Source: Alkalisalibacterium limincola (GTDB taxonomy: Bacteria; Pseudomonadota; Gammaproteobacteria; Xanthomonadales; Xanthomonadaceae). Taken from it: DNA of 64,000 bases. The position numbers were made by a program, and so were the translations under genes. The DNA lies in the NCBI RefSeq assembly GCF_008017755.1, contig NZ_VRTS01000001.1:496001-560000 (forward strand), given 5' to 3'. Of the stretch, positions 8,447 to 21,081 are shown piece by piece (position 1 is the stretch's first letter; the number at the start of each line of letters is the position of its first letter). Under the pieces are notes generated by a model. That model ran no database searches. It was not told the DNA's origin and worked only from the letters and a program-made list of their open reading frames with translations.

Positions 8447-10954
8447 TCAGCGGCGGCCGCCCTTCTTCGCCTTCGGCGGCGTGGGCGGGACGAAACTCCC
8501 GAACTCCGCCTTGTCCGACAGCACCAGCCGGAAATCGATCTTGCGCTCCTCCAGGCTGGCCTTGAGCACGATGATGCGGACCGCATCACCGAGCTGGAAG
8601 ACCAGCCCGCCGCGCTCTCCGCCCAAGGTCCGCCGGGCCGGATCGAAATGGTAATAGTCGTTGGGCAGCTGGGTGACGTGCACCAGGCCGTTGACCTTGG
8701 ACTCCTTGAGCTCCACGAACAGGCCGAAGCTGGTGACACCGCTGATGACGCCGTCGAACTCCGAGCCGACGTGCTGCTCCATCCAGGCGGCGCGGTAGCG
8801 CTCGTCAACCTCGCGCGAAGCTTCGTCGGCGCGGCGGCCACGCTCGGAGCACTGCAGCGACAGCGTCGCCATGTCGTGGCGGGCGTAGCGGAAGTCCTCC
8901 GCACTCCCCCCGGCCAGCACGTGCTTGATCGCGCGGTGCACCAGCAGGTCCGGGTAACGCCGGATCGGCGAGGTGAAGTGCGCATAGGCATCGAGCGCCA
9001 GGCCGAAATGACCGTTGTTCTCCGGCGTGTAGACCGCCAGGGCCTGCGAGCGCAGCAGCACCGACTCCAGCAGCGCGGCGTCGGGACGCTCGCGCACCTT
9101 CCGGATCAACTGCGTGTAGTCGCGCGGACGCACCCGGCCCAGCGGCGGCAGGCTCAGGTTGAATTCCTTCAGGAACTCCAGCAGGTCCTCGTACTTGTTC
9201 TCCGGGGGGCTCTCGTGGACGCGGTAGGGGGCAGGCACCCCCGACTCGAGCAGGAAGCGCGCGGCCTCGACGTTGGCCGCGATCATGCACTCCTCGATGA
9301 GCTTGTGCGCATCGTTGCGCTGGAGCATGCCTGCCTGGACCACCTCGCCGGCCGGACCCAGCACGAAGCGGGTTTCGCCGGACTCGAACTCGATCGCCCC
9401 GCGCTTGGCCCGGGCCCGTGCCAGTACGCCGTAGAGCTGGTGCAGCTGCTTGACCTGCGGCATGAGCTCGCCGATCTGCGCCTTCGCGTTCTCGTCGTCC
9501 TCGCCGATCGCGTTCCACACCAGGGTGTAGGTCAGGCGTGCGTGCGAACGCATCACCGCCTCGTAGAACTCGGAGGACACCACCTCGCCGTCGCGGTCGA
9601 TGCGCATGTCGCACACGAAGCACATCCGGTCGACCTTGGGCTTGAGCGAGCAGATCCCGTTGGACAGCGTCTCGGGCAGCATCGGAACGACGAAGCCGGG
9701 GAAGTACACCGAGGTCGCGCGGTCCTGCGCTTCCTCGTCGAGCGCCATGCCCGGCTTGACGTAGTTGGACACGTCGGCGATCGCGACGACCAGCCGGAAA
9801 CCCTTCCCGTCGGGTTCGCAATACACCGCGTCGTCGAAATCCTTGGCGTCCTCGCCATCGATCGTCACCAGCGGCAACTGGCGCAGGTCGGCACGCTTGC
9901 CGATCTGGGCCGGGGAAACCTCCGTCGGCGTCGCCGTGGCTTCGTCGAGCACCGGCTGCGGGAACTCGTGTGGCAGGCCGTGGCCATGGATCGCGGCCTC
10001 GACCACCAGCGACGGCGTCAGCTTGTCGCCCAGCACGGTCAGGATGCGGCCGAACGGCGGACGATGCTGGGTCGGCGGCTCGGTGATCTCGCACACCACC
10101 AGCTGGCCGTCGCGCGCGCCTTCGCGGGCATTGGCCGGGATCATCACGTCCTGCAGCACGCGCCGGTCGTCCGGCGTGACGTAGGCCACGCCATTGCGTT
10201 CCTCGAAGCGGCCCATGACCCGGCTCAGGCGGCGCTCGAGCACCTCGACGATCGCGCCTTCCTTGCGGCCGCGCCGGTCGACGCCGGTGACGCTGGCCAG
10301 CACGCGGTCGCCATGCATCGCCTTGCGCAGCTCCTTGGGCGGCAGGAACAGGTCGTCGCCGCCGGCCTCGGGCCGCAGGAACCCGAAACCCTCCGGGTTG
10401 GCGATGACGGTGCCCGGCACCAGGTCGAGCTTTTCGGCCACGGCGTATCCGCCGCGACGATTGGCGAGCAGCTGGCCATCGCGCAACATGGCGCCAAGGC
10501 GCTTGCCCAGTGCATCGAACCGGTCCGCAGTGGTGAGTTCCAGGGCCGCCGCCAGGCCTTCCACGCTCATCGGGCCGTCCGCCTCGCCCAGCACGGAGAG
10601 GATCACTTCCCGGCTGGGGATGGGATTCTCGTAGCGGCGCGCCTCGCGCGCGGCATGGGGATCCTGTACACCAGCTCGGCCTCCGCCCTTGCCGGCGGCC
10701 TGCGACGGTCCCTGGGAGCGCGCCGGATCCGCCGATTTCCGGCCCTTGGCCTTCTGGCCACCTGGCTGCTGGTCCTTCGGCTTCTTCGCCGCGCCGGGGG
10801 CGGAAGTGCCCTGCTTTCCCCGCCGCTTTCCAGGAGGGGCTGCCGCGTCCGGGCCAGAGCCGCTGGTGGGCATCGAATCGGGCATCCAGCCCGGCCGTTT
10901 CGGGGCCGAGGTGGATCGCCCTCCCGTCTTGTTCTTCTTGGATTTTTCAGTCAT
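8447..10954 (-). CDS. rnr: Ribonuclease R
   Basis: An 835-residue processive 3'-5' exoribonuclease of the RNB family. In order: a Lys/Gly/Pro-rich low-complexity N-terminal extension of about 105 residues, a winged-helix segment, cold-shock domains, the RNB catalytic domain with acidic cluster DGEDAKDFDDAVYC, and a C-terminal S1 domain (EFDGVISGVTSFGLFVEL) with a basic tail. The ATG at 10954 (MTEKSKKNK) is preferred over an in-frame codon at 11080 that would extend into the tRNA-Leu gene. The basic extension probably adds RNA affinity. It heads a unit with rlmB. Confidence 0.95.
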   Translation of the reverse strand: MTEKSKKNKTGGRSTSAPKRPGWMPDSMPTSGSGPDAAAPPGKRRGKQGTSAPGAAKKPKDQQPGGQKAKGRKSADPARSQGPSQAAGKGGGRAGVQDPHAAREARRYENPIPSREVILSVLGEADGPMSVEGLAAALELTTADRFDALGKRLGAMLRDGQLLANRRGGYAVAEKLDLVPGTVIANPEGFGFLRPEAGGDDLFLPPKELRKAMHGDRVLASVTGVDRRGRKEGAIVEVLERRLSRVMGRFEERNGVAYVTPDDRRVLQDVMIPANAREGARDGQLVVCEITEPPTQHRPPFGRILTVLGDKLTPSLVVEAAIHGHGLPHEFPQPVLDEATATPTEVSPAQIGKRADLRQLPLVTIDGEDAKDFDDAVYCEPDGKGFRLVVAIADVSNYVKPGMALDEEAQDRATSVYFPGFVVPMLPETLSNGICSLKPKVDRMCFVCDMRIDRDGEVVSSEFYEAVMRSHARLTYTLVWNAIGEDDENAKAQIGELMPQVKQLHQLYGVLARARAKRGAIEFESGETRFVLGPAGEVVQAGMLQRNDAHKLIEECMIAANVEAARFLLESGVPAPYRVHESPPENKYEDLLEFLKEFNLSLPPLGRVRPRDYTQLIRKVRERPDAALLESVLLRSQALAVYTPENNGHFGLALDAYAHFTSPIRRYPDLLVHRAIKHVLAGGSAEDFRYARHDMATLSLQCSERGRRADEASREVDERYRAAWMEQHVGSEFDGVISGVTSFGLFVELKESKVNGLVHVTQLPNDYYHFDPARRTLGGERGGLVFQLGDAVRIIVLKASLEERKIDFRLVLSDKAEFGSFVPPTPPKAKKGGRR

Positions 10955-18375: not shown

Positions 18376-19868
18376 TCAAACACCCCTGGCGTCGCGCATG
18401 TCGCCTTCCATCCCGGTGAAGGTGTCGTCGACCGAGGTCGCAGGCGGCCGGCCCAACAGGCTGACGCCGACGATCGCAAGCGTGGCCAGCGCCACGCCCG
18501 GGATCATCTCGTACACCCCGAACCAGCCAAAGCGGTTCCACACCAGCACGACCAGCGAGCCCACCAGCATGCCGGCCAACGCGCCATCGCGGGTCATGCG
18601 CCGCCACAGCAGCGACAGGACGATGACCGGCCCGAAGGCGGCGCCGAAGCCGGCCCAGGCGTAGCTGACCAGCTGCAGCACGCGCGCGTCGGGGTCGCGC
18701 GCCATCCAGATCGCCACCAGCGACACCAGCAGCAGCGTGATGCGGCCGACCCAGAGCAGTTCCACCTGGCTGGCCGTGCGCCGCAGGAAGGCGCGGTAGA
18801 AATCCTCGGTCAGCGCGCTCGAACACACCAGCAACTGGCTGTTGAGCGTGGACATGATCGCGGCCAGGATCGCCGAGAGCAGGATGCCGGCGATCCAAGG
18901 ATGGAACACGACCGTGACCAGCGACAGGAACACGCGCTCGGCGTTCTCCTGGACCGGCCCGGCGAACTCGGGATTGTTGGCGAACCAGCCGATGCCGAAG
19001 AAGCCCACGCCCAGCGAACCGAACAGGCACAGCAACATCCAGCCCACGCCGATGCGCCGCGCGGTGGGAATGGATGCCACCGATTCGGCGGCCATGAAAC
19101 GCACCAGGATGTGCGGCTGGCCGAAATAGCCCAGGCCCCAGGCCAGGCCCGACACGATGGCCACCCAGCCGCCAGCCCCGACCAGGCTGAGGTAGGCCAC
19201 GTCGACCTCGCGCACCAGCGCCACGGAATCGGCGAAGCCGCCATTGAAATAGACCACGGTGATCGGCGTCACCACCAGCGCGAACAACATCAGCAGTCCC
19301 TGCGCCGTGTCGGTCCAGCTCACGGCCAGGAAACCGCCCACCAGCGTATAGGCGATGGTCACGCCGGCACCGATCCAGATCGCCGTGGCGTAGGGCACGC
19401 CGAACACGCCCTCGATGAGGCGGCCGCCGGCGACCACGCCGGAGGCGACGTAGAGGGCGAAGAACACGAGGATGACAAGCGCGGGCACGACCCGCAGCAG
19501 GCGGCTGCGGTCCTCGAACCGGTGGGTGAAGTAGTCCGGCAACGTCAGCGAGTTGTTCGCGCGTTCGGTATAGGCGCGCAGCGTCCGGCAACCAGCGTCC
19601 AGTTCAGCCACGCGCCCGCCACCAGGCCCACGCCGATCCACATTTCCGACAGGCCGCTCAGGAAGATCGCCCCGGGCAGGCCAAGCAGCAGCCAGCCGCT
19701 CATGTCGGAAGCACCCGCCGACAGCGCGGTGACCGTCGGTCCGAGTTTGCGCCCGCCGAGGATGTAGTCGTCGAAATCGTTCGTACGTCGCCAGGCGTAG
19801 TAGCCGATCACGACCAGGCCAAGCATGTACAGCGCGAAGGCTACGTAGGTCGGCGTGGATACGTTCAT
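18376..19868 (-). CDS. putP: Sodium/proline-type symporter (frameshifted in this sequence)
   Basis: Sodium:solute symporter family, with about 12-13 membrane segments after reconstruction (497 residues). The N-terminal part (19868 to about 19581) contains [30 protein letters not shown] and the C-terminal part continues [22 protein letters not shown], both close to E. coli PutP. The two parts are in different frames. One base is missing near 19581 (GGACGCTGCGC where GGACGCCTGCGC fits), between the segments LNWTLVAGR and LRAYTE. Transport of proline with Na+ is the likely role. The stop lies 14 bp from the miaA start. Confidence 0.88.
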
Positions 19869-19943
19869 GCAACTCCAGTACGGCGAAAGCGCGACAGCCT
19901 AACGCAGTTGTCGCCGCGAACCGAACCCCGCCCGACCCGGCGC

Positions 19944-20105
19944 TTGTCCACAGCAGGTGTGGAAAAGCGGTGGGGAAAGCCTGTGGATGGAACCCCACCA
20001 ACCAATGCTGGCGCGGCTGTCGGCCGACTTGACGATTCCATGACCACCCAGCTCCGCGCTATCCACAAAACGTGTGGACAAGCCATGGGGAAAGCCTGTG
20101 GACAG
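19944..20105. repeat. 115-bp-period tandem repeat with six DnaA-box-like 9-mers
   Basis: Two copies of a 45-bp core (19945-19989 and 20060-20104) are offset by exactly 115 bp, and the flanking CCATGACCAC recurs at the same offset (20037 and 20152). Each core holds an inverted TCCACA/TGTGGA pair, then GGGGAAAGCCTGTGGA. The 9-mers are: plus strand TTGTCCACA (19944-19952) and CTATCCACA (20059-20067); minus strand TTTTCCACA (19958-19966), CCATCCACA (19982-19990), TTGTCCACA (20073-20081) and CTGTCCACA (20097-20105). This fills most of the 310-bp gap between folP and putP. A DnaA-titrating or regulatory site is one reading; a clade-specific repeat is another. Confidence 0.6.
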
Positions 20106-20178
20106 CTCCCGAAGTTGCTTCGTGGGCACGCACTTGCGCCGCTGTGGCGATGCCATGACCACGCCGTTCGCCCGAGGG

Positions 20179-21081
20179 CTACTCGTCGTCGGGCCAGCGC
20201 GGCGCAGCGGACGCCTTCGACACGCGAGGCAGCGGCTGGCCGTCAACCGCCACCCATACCTGCAACATGTCGCGCGTCGCGGCCACGTCGTGCACGCGCA
20301 GGATCCTCGCGCCGCGCTGCACGGCGATCAATGCGGCTGCGGTCGAGCCCGCGATGCGGTCGTCCACCTCCCGCCCGGTCAACTCCCCGATCATGCGCTT
20401 GCGCGAAAGGCCCGCCAGGACCGGGCAGCCCAGGTCGCCGAACCGGTCCAGCCGCGCCAGCAGGGCCAGGTTGTGTTCGAGCGTCTTGCCAAACCCGAAC
20501 CCCGGATCGAGCACCAGGCGACTCTTCGGGATGCCCGCCATCTCGCAGGCAAAGACCCGCTGCGCCAGGAACGCGTGCACCTCGGCCACCACGTCGTGGT
20601 ACTCGGGAGCCTCCTGCATGCTGCGTGGCTCCCCCTGCATGTGCATCAGCACCACCGGCACGCCGGCCTCCGCCACCGCCTCCAGCGCACCCTCGCGACG
20701 CAGCGCGTACACATCGTTGACCAGGCCTGCCCCCGCGGCGAGTGCCGCACGCATCACCGGGGCCTTCGAGGTATCCACGGAGACCGGCACGCTGGTGCGC
20801 GCCAGCAGGCCCTCGATCACCGGCAACACCCGTGCCAGCTCATCGTCCCCGGACACATCCTGCGCCCCGGGGCGGGTGGACTCGCCACCGACATCGAGCA
20901 GGTCCGCACCGGCCTCGACCAAGGCCAGGCCGTGCGCGATAGCCGCCTCCGGCGTGTCCAGCCGCCCCCCGTCGGAGAACGAGTCCGGCGTCACGTTGAC
21001 GATGCCCATGATGCGCGGGCGGTCGAGCACCAGCACGCGGCCGGCGCAGTCGAGTCGGGGCACGGAGGGATCGTCGAACAT
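20179..21081 (-). CDS. folP: Dihydropteroate synthase
   Basis: A 300-residue folate-pathway enzyme that joins p-aminobenzoate to the pterin pyrophosphate; the sulfonamide target. The signature motifs are in order: [38 protein letters not shown] and [11 protein letters not shown]. The ATG at 21081 ([10 protein letters not shown]) gives a normal length; there is no clear Shine-Dalgarno sequence. It follows ftsH after a terminator-like hairpin. Confidence 0.95.

Follow-up and report, generated by a model that had tools for sequence, protein, structure and literature searches.

The window, that is, the whole stretch of 64,000 bp that was analysed (68.8% G+C), was found to carry a tandem pair of DnaA-box-bearing units in the intergenic region flanked by the folP end at 20179 and a putP-type symporter gene that starts at 19868, both genes being on the minus strand. 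The two units have the same orientation and follow each other with a step of 115 bp. Each includes, in this order, box I on the plus strand, 5 bp, box II on the minus strand, 3 bp, slot III, 3 bp and slot IV on the minus strand, such that an inverted box II begins at +14, a degenerate slot III at +26 and a box-like slot IV at +38 from the start of box I. The features are as follows.

18376–19868, minus strand: putP-type sodium:solute symporter gene, frameshifted, with PF00474 in two frames
19944–20105, plus strand: the two DARS-like units, 115 bp apart, with the direction from box I to slot IV towards the 3' end of folP
19944–19952, plus strand: unit 1 box I, TTGTCCACA; the identical 9-mer occurs in the dnaA-dnaN gap of the same genome
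19958–19966, minus strand: unit 1 box II, TTTTCCACA, inverted, after a 5-bp gap from box I
19970–19978, minus strand: unit 1 slot III (+26), GTGGGGAAA as read on the plus strand, degenerate and non-consensus; +26 is a peak across 117 sites (see below)
19982–19990, minus strand: unit 1 slot IV (+38), CCATCCACA, a box-like 9-mer
20023–20054, plus strand: tail of unit 1, sharing 75% identity with that of unit 2
20059–20067, plus strand: unit 2 box I, CTATCCACA; the identical 9-mer occurs in the dnaA-dnaN gap of the same genome
20073–20081, minus strand: unit 2 box II, TTGTCCACA, inverted
20085–20093, minus strand: unit 2 slot III (+26), ATGGGGAAA as read on the plus strand, degenerate
20097–20105, minus strand: unit 2 slot IV (+38), CTGTCCACA, a box-like 9-mer
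20138–20169, plus strand: tail of unit 2, the counterpart of the unit 1 tail
20179–21078, minus strand: folP (dihydropteroate synthase, PF00809), its start set by likeness to relatives; the conserved neighbour of the array

The first-pass annotation had described six DnaA-box-like 9-mers, spaced by 14 and then 24 bp within a 115-bp repeat; all six were found where it had placed them, and both the spacings and the repeat length are correct, the slot at +26 having been left out. As the tails of the units are 75% identical, the 115-bp duplication extends past the boxes. Four of the six 9-mers are within one mismatch of TTATCCACA, those of slot IV (19982 and 20097) having two, and TTWTNCACA occurs in the 64 kb window at 19958 only. 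Scored over its 18 bases, the head-to-head pair with its 5-bp gap has two mismatches in both copies, and no other place in the window has fewer than seven. Among 60 windows simulated to the dinucleotide statistics of the real one, none had a TCCACA-N5-TGTGGA pair, against two in the real one, and the densest 170 bp held at most two boxes at up to one mismatch (four in the real window) and at most four at up to two mismatches (six in the real window). No IHF-like or Fis-like site was detected within the array.

The symporter gene is split near 19545–19600, with a change of frame after the first 64 profile positions, and is either a true pseudogene or the product of an assembly error.

Occurrence in the draft genome

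The draft genome (3.03 Mb, 20 contigs, 95.5% complete) carries the array on contig C11. A search for further copies throughout the genome, proposed in the first-pass annotation because dozens of scattered copies would have pointed to an ordinary repeat, was run by DNA search and with a gapped pattern, and the unit was found at this one locus only; the other 34 DNA-search matches were short pieces with E values of 0.37 or worse. An interspersed repeat is thus ruled out by the single genomic locus, and the unit is not an INTERSPERSED repeat.

The exact TCCACA-N5-TGTGGA pair occurs at three sites in the genome, two of them in the window array and the third on contig C2 at priA. TTRTCCACA was found 11 times, no more often than the reversed-pattern control (also 11), so strong boxes are not over-represented in the genome; the window array and the C2 core account for two each, and a further one is in the dnaA-dnaN gap. 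This gap, the presumed oriC, shares the 9-mers TTGTCCACA and CTATCCACA with the window, but its boxes point apart at a distance of 36 bp and no TCCACA-N5-TGTGGA pair is present. The array is not itself oriC, dnaA being on contig C19 and the array on C11, with a different box geometry.

Arrays at folP in related genera

Six genera were found to carry arrays of one to nine units between folP and miaA. The 31 loci compared (window included; L100 and L102 left out as repeats of G249 and G077) comprise 113 units, 102 of them distinct. Two or more units are present in 27 loci, with a step of 114 or 115 bp in 24 of these. Within the pair, nine of the 12 inner bases never vary, which is partly a matter of selection as the unit search tolerated one mismatch per 6-mer. 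Slots III and IV face folP wherever folP was placed, the exceptions being the L091 unit at 9937 and the two units of L103; as the criterion for orienting units in the 31-locus comparison was how well slots III and IV matched, these two slots are subject to bias.

By tblastn, folP was identified in 28 of the 30 related loci, L272 having miaA alone (the fetched piece ends early) and the short L278 neither gene. The other flank of the array holds miaA, putP or both in 27 of the 28 folP loci, and L276 and L277 are pieces in which neither miaA nor putP was reached in one direction. Among the 30 related loci miaA was present in 25 and putP in six. In several related genera putP is missing and the array is followed directly by miaA; since loci in which putP was not found have miaA as their next identified gene, the array is independent of putP.

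A stricter pair pattern matched 112 of 247 genomes of the family, sites at priA and elsewhere being counted too, and the reversed-pattern control was absent from the matches listed for these 247 genomes. Among the best 80 named folP loci (one without downstream sequence, six with less than 1.5 kb of it and about half from other orders), the exact pair lies 3' of folP in four, namely Lysobacter sp. Root76 (L100), Lysobacter niastensis (L102), Arenimonas donghaensis (L134) and a Lysobacteraceae MAG (L103). It was absent after folP in the records of four Xanthomonas, three testable Stenotrophomonas, four Pseudoxanthomonas and two Luteimonas. As just four of the 80 named loci have the exact pair behind folP, the array there is a feature of a clade, and the clade-specific repeat with phased sites that the first-pass annotation had listed as one option is what the arrays in six genera amount to.

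Unit number rises with genome size (Spearman 0.84 over 30 of the 31 loci, kinship not corrected for). Within groups the coefficient was 0.81 in g15 (n = 9), 0.40 in g45 (n = 11) and −0.08 in g42 (n = 7), and for genus means it was 0.70 (n = 6, p = 0.12). No phased IHF-like site was found in the other folP arrays, the eight matches in 112 units being confined to two loci.

Similar pairs were also seen in other surroundings. A relative with six units at folP carries five more pairs, arranged as a further array, at a distance of about 57 kb (L092, G232 C1:5589772-5590541), and similar pair groups occur in another family of the order (L082 in G099 and L084 in G129), the last box of the G129 groups being at +37 and not at +38. 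In the units of many relatives, slot IV is followed by an inverted repeat, GCCTTGCG..GCAAGG, that is conserved in part and lies at roughly +57 to +73 as counted from box I; it was not evident in the window units. The palindrome CCTTGC-N3-GCAAGG, taken from the conserved stretch past slot IV in relatives, has zero to three sites per genome in six genomes and none in the genome studied here (G000).

Extra slots and a second core at priA

The positions that follow the pair were scanned at 117 non-redundant TCCACA-N5-TGTGGA sites, E. coli left out, in both directions (234 readings); the sites were chosen blind to what follows the pair and the scan is free of any choice of orientation. TGTGGA-like 6-mers (at most one mismatch) were found 68 times at +26 (three exact), 35 times at +38 (22 exact) and 17 times at +37 (14 exact), with about one expected per offset. 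The sole other offset with eight or more is −35 (eight, none exact), the peak at +14 being there by construction. The +26 peak coincides with the place of DARS box III.

The core pattern TTATCCACA-N5-TGTGGATAA-N3-TGTG was present in 96 of 99 genomes of the family at up to three mismatches and, at up to two, in 295 of 369 genomes of the class Gammaproteobacteria and 77 of 150 of the phylum; several families of the phylum set (f201, f203, f214 and f218) were without it. The reversed core pattern had no match in the three sets (99, 369 and 150 genomes). As the pattern contains TGTG at +26, its counts are no independent test of box III, and such a test is provided by the 117-site scan. Exact pairs were also seen singly, at places without a known role, among the 12 genomes scanned for them; the reversed-pattern control gave one site, in one of these 12 (G306).

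The contig C2 site (L201 1498-1532, C2 at about 35630), outside the window and upstream of priA, reads TTATCCACA-CAGCC-TGTGGATAA-GTC-TGTGGAAGG. It is a full DARS-type core, canonical box III included, and is accompanied by an exact IHF-like match at +121. Of the loci with the core that were retrieved, priA adjoins 27 of 30 from the family and 9 of 30 from the class; no DnaA or DnaN match was found in the flanks (about 1.5 kb or less) of any of the 30 family or 30 class loci. Of the 27 family loci at priA (the three others were left out of this count), 26 have an IHF-like WATCARNNNNTTR with at most one mismatch, on the same strand, at +120 to +122, and any other offset has at most two such matches. 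Exact IHF-like matches were present at 11 of these 27 loci and in none of 27 control stretches of equal length, which are mostly coding and of differing make-up. Seven of the nine class loci at priA have an IHF-like site at +118 to +121; of the remaining two, one has no IHF-like match and the other has one at +105 on the opposite strand. The priA region of E. coli K-12 is without the core (best 8 mismatches of 22).

At the 21 class loci that are not at priA, Pfam was run on 24 flanking ORFs (23 of 39 and one alternative). The matches varied, only rRNA adenine dimethylase being found twice (L250 and L251, from genomes of one family), and at least five of the 24 ORFs had no match.

Comparison with E. 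coli loci and proposed function

DARS loci, the original paper on which is reportedly that of Fujimitsu in 2009, contribute to the timing of replication initiation in E. coli. In NC_000913 the DARS1 core reads TTATCCACT-N5-TGTGGATAA-N3-TGTGTATTA and the DARS2 core, at 4136 in L048, reads TTATTCACC-N5-TGTGGATAG-N3-TGTGAAGAA, both with box I at +0, inverted box II at +14 and box III at +26. The DARS2 core falls between the primer sites of the published DARS2 deletion, as given in the accessible part of PMC4585315; a string match located part of MutH-9, and the long string of MutH-10 was unmatched as typed, its start being visible in the printed sequence. DARS boxes I and II are opposed and act to stimulate the release of ADP (PMC8682772, in the portion available), and boxes 1 and 2 are crucial in E. 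coli, box 3 being needed for full activity (PMC4585315, in the same part as above). The E. coli boxes keep ADP-DnaA in a head-to-head arrangement, as a result of which ADP departs and the apo-DnaA takes up ATP again (PMC8682772 and PMC4585315).

Like DARS1 (bioD-uvrB), the window units have an inverted box II at a distance of 14 bp from box I and a further slot at +26, and an IHF-like site is absent, within 300 bp of DARS1 and within the window array. DARS1 is a single copy in E. coli, whereas the window element is tandem, with a degenerate box III and an extra slot at +38. DARS2 (upstream of mutH) has the same box I/II geometry and its box III at the place of the +26 slot. Its IHF-like matches are at +93 and +109, with one mismatch each, and the one at +109 is comparable with the site at +121 beside the priA core. 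Unlike DARS2, in which IHF and Fis sites beside the core define the subtype, the window array has neither, and the core of the regulated type would be the one at priA. The +26 slot is in register across units; neither window copy has a consensus box in it, and the priA core has a canonical one. The degenerate box III in both window copies counts against full DARS membership, and the lack of IHF-like and Fis-like sites in the array, the patchy occurrence of arrays at folP and the single pairs at places without a known role also weigh against a DARS reading.

In seven single-contig relatives the folP array is 28.7–33.6 centisomes from dnaA, similar to DARS1, which is 32.9 centisomes from oriC in E. 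coli (DARS2 20.6, datA 10.1), with distances counted from what we take to be the oriC coordinate. This likeness may simply be due to folP gene order. The second core is 6.6–8.9 centisomes from dnaA in six of the seven and 3.6 in one array-less genome, its adjacency to priA being assumed in G306 and G288 from sequence likeness or position.

From these comparisons, the window is proposed to hold a tandem, IHF-less, DARS1-like element that would recharge ADP-DnaA and be partnered by a DARS2-like element at priA, a reading to which we give a probability of about 0.6. A DARS-like role had been among the options of the first-pass annotation, and it is well supported by the placing of box I at +0 and inverted box II at +14 and by the comparison across genera.

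The same annotation had also suggested titration, in which the cluster would soak up DnaA according to local gene dosage and leave its nucleotide state unaltered. Six box-like sites in 162 bp and the increase of unit number with genome size described above are what such a site might show, but we consider it unlikely, as just four of the six boxes are within one mismatch of the consensus, and titration needs neither the fixed 5-bp head-to-head gap nor the 12-bp steps, both of which recur across genera. Strong boxes, moreover, are no more frequent in the genome than the control pattern, and only two of the 11 are in the array, so that bulk titration is weakly supported. An element like datA that promotes hydrolysis of DnaA-bound ATP is improbable. 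datA and the array are both non-coding DnaA-box clusters, that of the window lying in an intergenic region apart from dnaA, but the spacing geometry does not fit, the opposed pair of E. coli datA being 12 bp apart and that of the window 14; datA also requires IHF, and the array has no IHF-like site. Transcriptional control by DnaA, whether of putP or of the end of the folP operon, has an equally poor chance. The element does lie between minus-strand folP and putP, upstream of the putP start, but putP is frameshifted in the window, the array is kept where putP was not found and miaA comes next (L083, L086, L091, L094 and L096, for example), and a search covering promoters of the sigma-70 type gave none in 19700–20400. 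An RNA hairpin or terminator formed by the TCCACA...TGTGGA inverted repeat hardly deserves credence, for although the inner two 6-mers are complementary and positions I3 and II7 are so in 46 of 102 units (34.2 in shuffles, maximum 42), the other outer positions are at shuffle level (I1-II9 22 of 102 against 24.6, I2-II8 91 against 91.1), the box-like slots at +26 and +38 all have one orientation, no terminator-like site was found and the only Rfam match in the window is one tRNA.

As for the DARS1-like reading, Hda (TIGR03420) was found above the curated cut-off in the present genome and in seven relatives (8 of 8 genomes), and ADP-DnaA is therefore expected to form, presumably by Hda-dependent hydrolysis. 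The DnaA of this genome matches the full-length solved DnaA 8btg over residues 7–439 of 450, and its C-terminal DNA-binding domain (domain IV) matches that of E. coli (1J1V, E 1.9e-36). ADP-DnaA would occupy boxes I and II with the AAA+ domains head to head, and the slots at +26 and +38 could load further ADP-DnaA; ADP would then be dropped, apo-DnaA released and ATP reloaded, and in this manner the locus might help to restore ATP-DnaA ahead of the next initiation. As the exact 5-bp gap is common to the E. coli DARS loci, the same act is likely here, and DARS-type ADP release at the window element, like the DnaA binding that it presupposes, is judged likely by analogy. Because the array has no IHF-like site, it would act as DARS1 does, with its core only. 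The duplicate unit together with the +26 and +38 slots may increase local loading, and the priA core with its phased IHF-like site would be the regulated, DARS2-like partner.

In the portions available, the published comparisons deal with E. coli and its relatives, one covering Enterobacterales, Vibrio and Shewanella (PMC8682772) and another reporting that the DARS2 core is conserved in E. coli-related species (PMC4245941); the present locus would be a tandem variant in another family. Among open-licence literature no report of DARS in the family of this genome was found. It is conceivable, at somewhat under an even chance, that DARS is near-universal in Gammaproteobacteria, that the widespread priA core with its phased IHF-like site is possibly ancestral, and that Lysobacter-like genera grew an additional, IHF-less locus at folP by tandem amplification of the core, with the copy number tuned to chromosome size.

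A simple pattern finds DARS-type cores in most of the Gammaproteobacteria sampled, which makes the generality of DnaA reactivation directly testable, and the tandem arrays with their varied copy number are natural dosage variants. Judging from sequence, these bacteria probably control chromosome replication by DARS-like elements.
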